From Cupriavidus respiraculi (lineage in GTDB: Bacteria; Pseudomonadota; Gammaproteobacteria; Burkholderiales; Burkholderiaceae): a DNA stretch of 64,000 nucleotides. The notes below the pieces were generated by a model. The model searched no databases. It was given only the letters and a program-made list of their open reading frames with translations, and had not been told where the DNA came from. Positions within the stretch are counted from its first letter, which is position 1, and each line of letters starts with the position of its first letter. The position numbers and the translations under genes were made by a program. The stretch is from contig NZ_CAJZAH010000008.1 in NCBI RefSeq assembly GCF_914271545.1, forward strand, positions 1 through 64,000, read 5' to 3'. Shown one piece after another: positions 41,263-50,019 of this stretch.

Positions 41263-42345
<1,083 letters not shown>

Positions 42346-42379
42346 CTAAACTTTTGGGTGTGCCCGCTATCATACTCGC

Positions 42380-42496
42380 GGACACTCTGCGTTGCGCCTC
42401 GCGTGGCGCGGTGTCCCCCGCTACTCCTCCCTGAGCGGGTACCCGCCTTCAAAGCGGGAAAGTTCATCCCCGTTGCTTGCAGCGGGGTTTTTTTTT
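42380..42496 (+). ncRNA. Candidate small RNA with CTCCTCC loop
   Basis: The hemB-ysxC spacer holds four consecutive plus-strand stems: GGACAC (42380-42385) with GTGTCC (42411-42416) enclosing GCGCC/GGCGC; CCCGCT (42417-42422) with AGCGGG (42434-42439), whose loop ACTCCTCCCTG exposes CTCCTCC; CCCGC (42442-42446) with GCGGG (42454-42458); and a terminator stem CCCCGTTGC/GCAGCGGGG followed by nine T. A -10-like TATCAT at 42368-42373 lacks a good -35. Both flanking genes are on the minus strand, so the terminator serves neither. Loops complementary to Shine-Dalgarno sequences occur in known small RNAs, including a toxic small RNA family reported in betaproteobacteria; membership was not tested. 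The 5' end is estimated. Confidence 0.5.
42468..42496 (+). terminator. Intrinsic terminator of the candidate small RNA
   Basis: CCCCGTTGC (42468-42476) pairs with GCAGCGGGG (42479-42487) including one T-G pair, followed by nine consecutive T (42488-42496). The T tract is on the plus strand, against the direction of hemB and ysxC. Confidence 0.85.
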
Positions 42497-42503
42497 GCGC
42501 GCT

Positions 42504-43226
42504 TCAGTCCTGCGCGGGCGCGGCCGATCCGTCCTGCCCATCCGTGCCGTCCGTGCCGTCCGCGCCGTTTGCGGCATCGGCCGGCGGACTCGCTTCGGGC
42601 AGCGCCAGCCAGCCGGCGATACGCTGCTGGGCCTCTTCGATGCCGCGCCGTTTCAGGCTCGAGAACAGCTGCGCGGTCAGCGTCGCGGTGCCCGCGGCCT
42701 GCTTCGCATAGTCGGCCAGCACACGCCGCGTCTCGCGCAGCGCCAGCGCGTTCTCGCTGCTGGTCAGCTTGTCGGCCTTGGTCAGCAGCACGTGGATCGG
42801 CTTGCCGGTGGGCAAAAACCACTCGACCATCTGGCAATCGAGATCGGTGAACGGGCGGCGCGCGTCCATCATCAGCACCAGCCCGGCCAGCTGCGGACGC
42901 GACTGCACGTAATCGCCCAGCAAGGCCTGCCAGTGGTATTTGGCCGAGCCCGACACCTGGGCGTAGCCGTAGCCGGGCAGGTCGACGAGAAAGCCCAGCG
43001 CGTCGGGCGCCTTGACCGGGGCGATGGTGAAGAAGTTGATGTGCTGGGTGCGGCCCGGCGTCTTGGAGGAGAACGCAAGCCGCTTCTGGTTGCACAGCAC
43101 GTTGATGGCGGTGGACTTGCCCGCGTTGGAACGTCCGGCAAAGGCCACTTCCGGCACGGCCGTGGTCGGCAGGTCGCGCAGGTGATTGACGGTGGTGAAG
43201 AAGCGGGCCTGATGGAGAAGGGACAT
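42504..43226 (-). CDS. ysxC: Ribosome biogenesis GTP-binding protein YsxC/EngB
   Basis: A 240-residue essential GTPase involved in 50S assembly and needed for normal cell division. The P-loop GRSNAGKST is at residues 31-39, [11 protein letters not shown] follows, G3 is DLPGYGYA and G4 is TKAD. I chose ATG 43226 ([20 protein letters not shown]), the family start; the frame is open a further 38 codons upstream without family character. The C-terminus ends in an unusual Asp/Gly/Thr repeat ([11 protein letters not shown]) encoded by a short tandem repeat near 42540-42565, probably disordered and variable. Confidence 0.95.
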
Positions 43227-48601: not shown

Positions 48602-49165
48602 ATGGACGGGTTTGACCGCCAACTGATCGCGCTGGCGCCGCGCCTGCGGCGCCATGCGCGCGGCCTGACTCGCGACGTGGCGGCGGCCGACGACCTGGTG
48701 CAGGACACCCTGGAGCGGGCGCTGCGCTATCGCTGGCGTTTCCGCCTGCGCACGGGCGCGCGCTGGGGCGACGGCGGCGACGGCCTGCTGTCGTGGCTGC
48801 TGACGCTGATGCACCGGCTGCGCCTGAACGGCGTGCGCCGCGCGGATCTGGTGGTCGCGGCCGATGTCCTGCCCGACGTTGCCGCACCCGGCGCCGATCC
48901 CGGCCTGCGCCGCGATCTCGCGCGTGCGCTGGAGGCGCTGCCCGAGGCCCAGCGGGCGGTGCTGCTGCTGGTCAGCCTGGAGCAGTTCTCCTACCAGGAG
49001 GCGGCGCGCGTGCTGGACGTGCCGGTCGGCACCGTGATGTCCCGGCTGGCGCGGGCCCGCGAGCGCATGCGCCAGTTGCTCGACGGCGAGACGGCACCCG
49101 ATGCGGCGACGACCGCCGGCGCACCGCGGCCGGCCACCCGACCCGGCCTGCAAAGAATCAAATGA
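48602..49165 (+). CDS. ECF-family RNA polymerase sigma factor
   Basis: A 187-residue sigma-70 family protein with only regions 2 and 4. Region 2 includes DDLVQDTLERALRYRWRF and region 4 includes LPEAQRAVLLLVSLEQFSYQ then EAARVLDVPVGTVMSRLARA with the helix-turn-helix. Its stop overlaps the start of the anti-sigma gene by 4 bases, which usually ensures stoichiometric synthesis. No good Shine-Dalgarno sequence is visible before ATG 48602. Target genes probably include its own operon and possibly msrPQ. Confidence 0.93.
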   Translation: MDGFDRQLIALAPRLRRHARGLTRDVAAADDLVQDTLERALRYRWRFRLRTGARWGDGGDGLLSWLLTLMHRLRLNGVRRADLVVAADVLPDVAAPGADPGLRRDLARALEALPEAQRAVLLLVSLEQFSYQEAARVLDVPVGTVMSRLARARERMRQLLDGETAPDAATTAGAPRPATRPGLQRIK

Positions 49166-50019
49166 CGCCCCCACCGATCCCGGACGAAGACGAACTGCAT
49201 GCCTATGCCGACGGCCGGCTGGCGTCCGCCCGCCGCGCCGAGGTGGATGCCTATCTGGCCGCCCACCCGCAGGCCGCGGCGCGCGTCGCGTCGTGGCAGC
49301 GGCAGGCGCGCGAACTGCATGCCGCGCTGGACGGCGTGCTCAACGAACCGGTGCCGGGCCGGGCCCTGCCGGCCGGGCTGCGCGGGCAGGACGGCGCGCG
49401 CGCGCCCTCGCCGGGGCGCCGCACGGCATGGACGGTGGGACTGGCGGCCAGCGTCGCGTCGCTGGCGCTGGGCGCCGCCATCGGCTGGATGGCGCACGGC
49501 AGCATGGCCGCGGGCGGCGCGGGCGGCGGCCTGATCGCCACCGCGCCGGCGGTGGAGCGCTTCGCGCGCCAGGCGCTGGCCAGCCACGTGGTCTACGCAC
49601 CGGAGGTGCGGCATCCGGTCGAGGTGACGGCCGACGACGAGGCGCATTTGGTGGCATGGTTGTCCAAGCGCCTCGGCGCGCCGCTGCAGGTGCCCGACCT
49701 CTACCCGCTGGGCTTCCGGCTGATGGGGGGGCGTCTGGGGGTCGCCGAGGGCGGACCGTCCGCCATCCTGATGTACGAGGGCCAGGACGGTACCCGCCTG
49801 TCGCTGCAGCTGCGCCGGATGGCGCAGGGCACGCCGGACACCGGTTTCCGGATGGAAAGAATGGGCCGCGGCCCGAGCGACCGGCCTGCCGATGCGGCCC
49901 GCACGATGGCCTTTTACTGGGTCGACCGGGATGTCGGGTTTGCGCTGGCCGGCCCGCTGGAGCGCGACCGGCTGCTGGCGCTGGCCCAGAGCGTATATCG
50001 CCAGTACCGCAGCGGTTGA
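49162..50019 (+). CDS. Transmembrane anti-sigma factor
   Basis: A 285-residue protein with an acidic N-terminal domain (DEDELHAYADGRLASARRAE) like the RskA/COG5662 class, one membrane span near residues 89-110 (VGLAASVASLALGAAIGWMA) and a periplasmic domain of about 175 residues. It lacks the HxxxCxxC zinc motif and has no Cys, so thiol-based sensing is unlikely; regulated proteolysis or ligand sensing are alternatives. It starts in the stop of the sigma gene (ATGA). Confidence 0.9.
   Translation: MTPPPIPDEDELHAYADGRLASARRAEVDAYLAAHPQAAARVASWQRQARELHAALDGVLNEPVPGRALPAGLRGQDGARAPSPGRRTAWTVGLAASVASLALGAAIGWMAHGSMAAGGAGGGLIATAPAVERFARQALASHVVYAPEVRHPVEVTADDEAHLVAWLSKRLGAPLQVPDLYPLGFRLMGGRLGVAEGGPSAILMYEGQDGTRLSLQLRRMAQGTPDTGFRMERMGRGPSDRPADAARTMAFYWVDRDVGFALAGPLERDRLLALAQSVYRQYRSG

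Follow-up and report, generated by a model that had tools for sequence, protein, structure and literature searches.

A conserved small RNA of the anti-hemB family in Cupriavidus with an anti-Shine-Dalgarno loop and a probable sigma-E promoter

The element at positions 42380 to 42496 of the window (the whole stretch of 64,000 nucleotides of Cupriavidus respiraculi DNA that was analysed) is a real small regulatory RNA. It is conserved and structured, exposes an anti-Shine-Dalgarno loop and ends in a terminator of its own, and it adds a member to a known family, Rfam RF02837 (anti-hemB). Taking all the evidence jointly, we think it probable that this is an independently transcribed RF02837 RNA of about 115 nt, driven by sigma-E and acting in trans through its anti-Shine-Dalgarno loop, and that it represents the Burkholderiales branch of an RNA encoded in other proteobacteria next to polA and engB, with sX13 as a probable relative and ErsA as a possible one. 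An initial annotation of this DNA had proposed a small RNA whose anti-Shine-Dalgarno loop probably acts on ribosome-binding sites. The Rfam match and the conservation described below support that interpretation, which had overlooked both the membership in RF02837 and the tie to polA and engB. The features are as follows.

42347..42374, plus strand: proposed sigma-E-type promoter (-35 TAAACTT at 42347-42353, 16-nt spacer, -10 TCATA at 42370-42374)
42380 to about 42496, plus strand: small RNA, predicted length about 115 nt, start inferred from the promoter
42380..42416, plus strand: 5' hairpin P1, outside the Rfam model (42380-42386 with 42410-42416; fold and covariation)
42389-42397 with 42401-42409, plus strand: inner stem of P1 (fold)
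42417..42439, plus strand: hairpin P2, stem 42417-42422 with 42434-42439, loop ACUCCUCCCUG (fold)
42424-42430, plus strand: CTCCTCC anti-Shine-Dalgarno motif in the P2 loop
42442..42458, plus strand: hairpin P3 (42442-42446 with 42454-42458; fold and covariation)
42468..42496, plus strand: intrinsic terminator (8-bp stem 42468-42475 with 42480-42487, 4-nt loop, nine T)
41263..42255, minus strand: hemB (Pfam ALAD), divergent neighbour
42504..43226, minus strand: engB/ysxC (Pfam MMR_HSR1), convergent neighbour and recurring landmark

The plus strand of 42380-42496 folds into four hairpins, P1, P2, P3 and the terminator, with a free energy of -56.1 kcal/mol, as compared with -40.05 (s.d. 3.73) for 200 dinucleotide shuffles (z = -4.30), none of which matched its stability. 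The fold and the gene calls bear out the initial description of four consecutive plus-strand stems between minus-strand hemB and ysxC, with CTCCTCC in the loop of the second; one lone pair (42424-42433) forms inside that loop. The strong terminator with nine T is likewise present, being the single site returned by a terminator scan of the element, for which shuffles average 0.4. The stop codon of engB has its outer end at 42504, 8 bases past the end of the T run at 42496, and the RNA adjoins engB.

A covariance search against Rfam, proposed at the outset as a check, returned a known small RNA family and not the toxic one that had been suspected. RF02837 matches 42414-42495 on the plus strand over its full length with 70.8 bits (cut-off 49.5). 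This is the single above-cut-off match to RF02837 in the genome, and the other four above-cut-off Rfam matches in the window are tRNAs. The family was found above cut-off in 54 of 60 relatives searched, among them 34 of the 35 other Cupriavidus genomes (the exception is 54% complete), and at E <= 1e-5 it is present in 178 of 250 Burkholderiales genomes, 164 of them above cut-off. These covariance-model scores show that the RNA belongs to an already catalogued family. With RF02837, also called 'Burkholderia RNA 7', it has in common sequence and structure above cut-off, the terminator and a CU-rich loop; the Rfam model lacks the 5' hairpin P1 found here. One relative, ncS04 of Burkholderia cenocepacia, is listed as anti-hemB in the portion of PMC5688073 available to us, which describes it as 105 nt long with a 3' end confirmed by RACE, includes it in a table of small RNAs strongly expressed in biofilms, and reports that Hfq binds it. 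The transcript itself has been shown in this relative only (PMC5688073).

The initial annotation had likened the element to the betaproteobacterial toxic small RNA, RF02278. As a family assignment this fails: RF02278 scores 20.6 bits on the window RNA, far under its cut-off of 50, and the two true members of the genome, with 71.3 and 53.4 bits, are found at other loci. These members are L009 (C2:1203957) and L010 (C9:160821), and the same genome holds weaker double-hairpin candidates under the RF02278 cut-off (L011, L012, L014 and L016). In the reverse direction, the RF02837 model gives a weak cross-match of 25 bits on one RF02278 member. RF02278 RNAs (bdhR1, S17) resemble the window RNA in that a hairpin with a CUCCUCC-UGAG loop precedes a terminator, and the pairing with ribosome-binding sites that has been proposed for them (PMC5688073, PMC11722255, as far as these sources were available) is the one we propose here. 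They differ in having two hairpins rather than four, in carrying a second CU-rich stretch in an unpaired 5' end, and in occupying other loci. That both carry a CUCCUCC(C)UGAG loop suggests that they work alike; it does not make the window RNA a member. Matches to 6C, ylbH, suhB/mmgR and ar14 were under their own cut-offs and were treated as chance or as shared C-rich design; the ar14, 6C and Scr3202 models also cross-match relatives of the RNA. Since C-rich hairpins with a terminator attract foreign models, such cross-matches alone are no proof of homology.

The CTCCTCC 7-mer occurs five times in the window, where 8.6 copies are expected. It is not rare, so its meaning must rest on conservation. 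We collected 163 loci from Burkholderiales (56 from the search of relatives, 27 new ones from the search of 250 genomes of the order, and 80 further) and dropped three that are cut by a contig end (L073, L086 and L096). Several genomes contribute more than one of the remaining 160 loci, and 36 of the 160 are from Cupriavidus. CTCCTCCCTGAGCGGG is present in 35 of 35 Cupriavidus loci, and CTCCTCC has therefore not been lost in close relatives. Across the order, CCTCCCTGA is present in 156 of 160 loci; the full CTCCTCCCTGA occurs in only 100 of 160, indicating that its first two letters vary outside Cupriavidus. A further CU-rich stretch, CCCCTT, lies in the 3' part of 97 of the 124 loci outside Cupriavidus and of none of the 35 inside. 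Two paralogues with other stems (L071 and L072) retain TCCTCCCTGA in the loop. L072 (G032:C7:52157-52251) is a sub-threshold second copy in one Cupriavidus genome, with 35.6 bits; it has neither hemB nor engB within 1.5 kb and contains two TTCCTCCCTGA stretches in a single RNA.

For covariation we aligned (alignment A1) loci that are from Cupriavidus or have a promoter score, defined below, of at least 9 (137 sequences), with 5' ends set from the promoter, and thinned them to less than 86% similarity (49 sequences); removal of the paralogue L072 left 48 diverse sequences. The columns of the P2 loop are invariant or nearly so. Compensatory changes were found in all four helices, with double-sided changes in 20 of 24 pairs. 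Cells with double-sided changes numbered 110, as compared with 25.9 in shuffles, and none of 500 shuffles was as high on any of five measures; controls in which the helices were slid gave 8 to 14 pairs and 11 to 32 cells. In P1, all six counted pairs have double-sided changes and 95.2% of cells are paired. The consensus fold of the 48 rows, in which CCC of the loop pairs with GGG in P2, was set aside in favour of a longer P2 stem because rows such as L063, L132 and L169 support the latter. MAFFT misplaced the Cupriavidus P3 by about two columns in A1, as well as many gammaproteobacterial P3 rows in a second alignment (A2), so the P3 counts suffer. From this pattern of substitution, the four-helix structure and the loop appear to be under selection.

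The -35 region had been called poor at the outset. That judgement holds insofar as a promoter scan found no sigma-70-type promoter; what it missed is the sigma-E-type promoter behind it. From the stretches upstream of the loci we read a consensus, GGAACTT/TCTNA, and scored sites against it out of 11. Outside Cupriavidus, 101 of 124 loci carry GGAACTT-N16/17-TCTNA at the equivalent upstream position (score of at least 9), the other 23 scoring below 9; over all Burkholderiales loci, 110 of 160 score at least 9, where dinucleotide shuffles lead us to expect 4.6. One Burkholderiales genome (G268) has six anti-hemB matches, of which L110, L171, L175 and L176 score 6 or 7 of 11. The promoter in the window itself scores 8 of 11, a value reached by about 22% of shuffles. 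Within Cupriavidus the -35 is degenerate relative to GGAACTT, reading TAAACTT in 26 of 35 loci and AGAACTT in nine; AACTTTT together with ATCATACTCGCGGAC is present in all 35, as is the -10 TCATA at a spacing of 16. The poor -35 is thus probably that of a sigma-E promoter, from which the transcript is predicted to start near 42380.

The proposed promoter resembles a published type. The sigma-E motif of RybB and MicA consists of GGAACTTTT and GTCAAA, according to the part of PMC1804206 available to us, so that these RNAs share the GGAACTTTT type of -35; and SigE of Bordetella, a betaproteobacterial sigma-E, recognises the rpoHP3 promoter of E. coli (PMC3490749, also available in part). The genome encodes RpoE (323.1 bits), and by eye no such promoter was obvious upstream of rpoE. 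RybB and MicA are, to our knowledge, unrelated to the window RNA in sequence and structure; their role in envelope stress is one that we propose for it too, whereas their porin targets are not indicated for it. As a genome-wide marker of sigma-E, the pattern GGAACTTN{16,17}TCNNA was rejected, with four matches as compared with 14 in the reversed control. A looser pattern, AACTTTTN{13,15}TCNNA, has two matches in the genome, this RNA and a site before mdoG (its reversed control also has two). In the latter, GAACTTTT...TCTAA ends about 43 bases before the likely ATG of mdoG/opgG (L186:1500-1571; C1 near 1184050), and mdoG is a member of the E. coli sigma-E regulon (PMC2731931, in the part available). 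The looser pattern was picked after the RNA had been seen, so the mdoG match is suggestive and not a blind test.

We consider it unlikely that the same trans-acting anti-Shine-Dalgarno RNA is transcribed in Cupriavidus by the housekeeping sigma factor or by an ECF factor other than RpoE. The departure of the Cupriavidus promoter from GGAACTT would fit such a reading, as would TATCAT ending at 42373, which could be a sigma-70 -10, and the data on ncS04, which was found in biofilms and showed no significant change in the seven conditions of Table 2 of PMC5688073; in the portion of that paper available to us, stresses lasting 20 minutes, SDS among them, 'largely' failed to induce small RNAs in B. 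cenocepacia. Both findings weigh against our main reading as well. Against it stand the lack of any scored sigma-70-type promoter, the retention of AACTTTT and the -10 block throughout the 35 Cupriavidus loci, with GAACTTTT in nine of them, and the position of the second genomic match before mdoG. The window also contains an ECF sigma factor gene at 48602-49165 on the plus strand (Sigma70_r4_2, 65 bits), which ranks second, with a weaker score, among the genome's matches to the RpoE family; a reading frame that follows at 49123-50019 (plus strand; 49123-50016 without a Pfam match) overlaps it, and we take it that this frame may encode the anti-sigma partner.

Transcription by RpoE remains our preferred reading, and the same type of promoter recurs in the wider family. 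RF02837 was found at E <= 1e-4 in 106 of 274 sampled genomes of the class (two from Burkholderiales), 14 of them above cut-off. We examined 20 loci outside Burkholderiales, which hold 30 copies of the RNA; most share the layout, and 23 of the 30 copies have a promoter score of at least 9. polA is present in ten of these loci and engB in ten, with at least one of the two in 15 and both in five. Tandem arrays of two to four copies were seen at L325, L328, L334, L339, L340 and L341, where most copies have their own promoter-like site, and near L105 and L112. Spot 42, too, adjoins engB (yihA).

An extended covariance model, R1, was built from 66 sequences, 42 from Burkholderiales and 24 copies from outside; alignment A2 had dropped rows L064, L154, L170, L038, L160 and L147 from the order and six of the 30 gammaproteobacterial copies (L326, two of L328 and three of L340). 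R1 finds 113 of 252 genomes. Its score of 58.7 bits on the window RNA is no independent test, as the window sequence is among its training rows. We then considered 26 held-out loci, 20 picked by hand (E values of 5.1e-10 to 1.8e-5) and six others from the R1 search. They come from 24 families, one of which (that of G292) has a training member, so that 25 of the 26 loci are from untrained families; gene context was not seen by the model. polA is present at 21 of the 26 and engB at 19, with at least one of them at 25, and 20 of 26 have a promoter score of at least 9, where 0.5 is expected from mononucleotide shuffles. Since the held-out loci keep the polA/engB context, RF02837 is wider than its cut-off shows. 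We conclude from these gene calls and model matches that, outside Burkholderiales, the predicted RF02837 RNA sits beside polA and engB. The window RNA is most likely the branch, within Burkholderiales, of an old small RNA that sigma-E drives and that acts in trans.

Gene context within Burkholderiales bears on whether the RNA acts in trans or in cis. hemB lies upstream on the opposite strand in 124 of 160 loci, and in 112 it does so with engB downstream, also on the opposite strand, as in the window. No polA was found in any of the 160. The remaining 36 loci have no hemB within about 1.5 kb (two of these, L068 and L108, are cut by a contig end), yet all 36 retain CCTCCCTGA; 24 of them have a promoter score of at least 9 and 12 score below it. 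In 20 of the 36, engB lies upstream on the same strand as the RNA, and 16 of these 20 loci with inverted engB score at least 9 for the promoter. The loop does not pair with the start region of hemB (0.1 kcal/mol) or of engB (0.3 kcal/mol). The RNA most likely acts in trans, not as an antisense of hemB or engB. The Rfam name implies instead a cis-antisense RNA to the spacer of a co-transcribed engB-hemB mRNA, controlling hemB. The opposite-strand position between the two genes, in the window and in the majority of loci, agrees with that idea, but we judge it quite improbable given the hemB-less loci that keep the loop, the 20 in which engB is on the RNA's own strand, the failure of the loop to pair with the hemB start region and the situation outside Burkholderiales, where polA is the upstream gene whenever one was found (10 of 20 and 21 of 26 loci) and no hemB match was listed.

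Acting in trans, the RNA would probably be transcribed by RpoE polymerase under envelope stress, as the conservation of the promoter suggests. The P2 hairpin would then present the conserved loop CUCCUCCCUG, which may pair with the G-rich Shine-Dalgarno sequences of a set of mRNAs; such pairing would block ribosome binding and repress several mRNAs. Help from Hfq is likely, to judge from the binding reported for the B. cenocepacia relative. Repression of this kind has precedents in the parts of two reports available to us: sX13 represses mRNAs with G-rich motifs near their starts through C-rich loops (PMC3771888), and Bordetella S17S exerts repression through target sites located at ribosome-binding sites (PMC11722255). 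Of the 56 genes called in the window, whose starts were picked in part for Shine-Dalgarno strength, 13 have a start region that pairs with the loop at -10 kcal/mol or better; among random coding 25-mers the share is 3.6%. At these start regions the real loop has a median of -7.8 kcal/mol and composition-shuffled loops a mean of -6.97; since shuffled loops pair nearly as well, base order adds little. Porins are the classical targets of sigma-E small RNAs. The genome has 14 matches to PF13609 porins, and candidate starts, some of them unconvincing, were found for 12 of the 14 loci; only L193 (-12.6 kcal/mol) and L189 (-10.8 kcal/mol) reach -10, the others being weaker, and porins were set aside as preferred targets.

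That the RNA is instead a global, RF02278-like toxic inhibitor of translation, titrating the Shine-Dalgarno sites of most mRNAs, is very improbable: the common loop motif and the weak cross-matches between the two models favour it, but the score is far under the RF02278 cut-off, R1 finds neither RF02278 member of the genome (L009, L010) at E <= 1, just those 13 of 56 start regions pair at the -10 kcal/mol threshold, and S17S, which resembles RF02278, did no harm to exponential E. coli and caused only a modest defect in its entry into stationary phase (PMC11722255, in the part available).

The place that this family occupies outside Burkholderiales, next to polA and engB, invites comparison with two known small RNAs. 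The first, sX13 (RF02232), lies downstream of polA and has hairpins with C-rich loops, like the relatives of the window RNA. Its first C-rich loop is followed by UGGAGC, and its second reads CCCCAAG, as in many gammaproteobacterial relatives. In the portion of PMC3771888 available to us, sX13 is said to be exclusive to Xanthomonadaceae and Hfq is described as dispensable for it, whereas ncS04 is bound by Hfq; the authors ask there whether other polA loci encode such RNAs, and the paper names neither ErsA nor anti-hemB. The RF02837 and sX13 models match the same place in three of seven genomes with sX13-model matches (G365, G453 and G515). R1 scores 22.9 and 21.3 bits on two sX13 loci outside its training set; no GGAACTT-type promoter is seen at these two loci, and in the genomes that hold them R1 found nothing at E <= 1e-4 and RF02837 is not among the matches listed. 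RF02232 itself has no match in this stretch of the window at E <= 10 or in the genome at E <= 1e-4.

The second, ErsA (Pseudomon-1, RF01719) of Pseudomonas, is encoded between polA and engB (PMC8575079); it is strictly dependent on sigma-22, responds to envelope stress and represses algC and oprD post-transcriptionally (PMC7565897; both sources as available in part). At the one ErsA locus that we read, polA lies upstream and GAACTT...GTCATA precedes the gene, and no engB was found within 1.5 kb. ErsA resembles the RNA family in its C-rich terminator loop and differs in its 5' half, which lacks the P1 hairpin of the window RNA. R1 scores 17.8 bits on this locus, hardly above the 16.7 and 15.5 bits of other loci in the window's own genome, so R1 does not establish homology. 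RF01719 has no match in this stretch of the window at E <= 10 or in the genome at E <= 1e-4.

We regard a relationship of the window RNA to sX13 as likely and to ErsA as possible, because locus and C-rich loops agree in both cases and the promoter agrees for ErsA; we go no further because the sX13 loci read lack the promoter and C-rich models cross-react. An evenly balanced proposition, in our estimation, is that a single ancient envelope-stress RNA, common to beta- and gammaproteobacteria, has given rise to anti-hemB, sX13 and ErsA as its branches; this small RNA would be transcribed by sigma-E, lie beside engB (ancestrally between polA and engB) and carry one to three C-rich loops that block Shine-Dalgarno sequences, the Cupriavidus RNA being a reduced, one-loop version. 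Both this proposition and our overall explanation are tempered by the absence of R1 matches at E <= 1e-4 in the sampled sX13 and ErsA genomes and by the near-equal pairing of shuffled loops.

In the open-access literature we found no link of anti-hemB, RF02837 or ncS04 to sigma-E, nor the promoter, the 5' hairpin, the polA-engB context or the tie to sX13 and ErsA; hemB is not mentioned in PMC2864571, and PMC4175613, on sigma-E in B. pseudomallei, contains none of the terms looked for. The label anti-hemB may be misleading. These results give a catalogued RNA a regulator that can be tested, RpoE; they also correct its predicted 5' end and its structure and propose a mechanism. If the reading as one ancient RNA is true, it would answer the question of the sX13 authors about other polA loci (PMC3771888). 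Should the wider grouping stand, a single sigma-E small RNA next to engB would extend across the beta- and gammaproteobacteria, and the results obtained with ErsA and sX13 would become guides for work in Burkholderiales.
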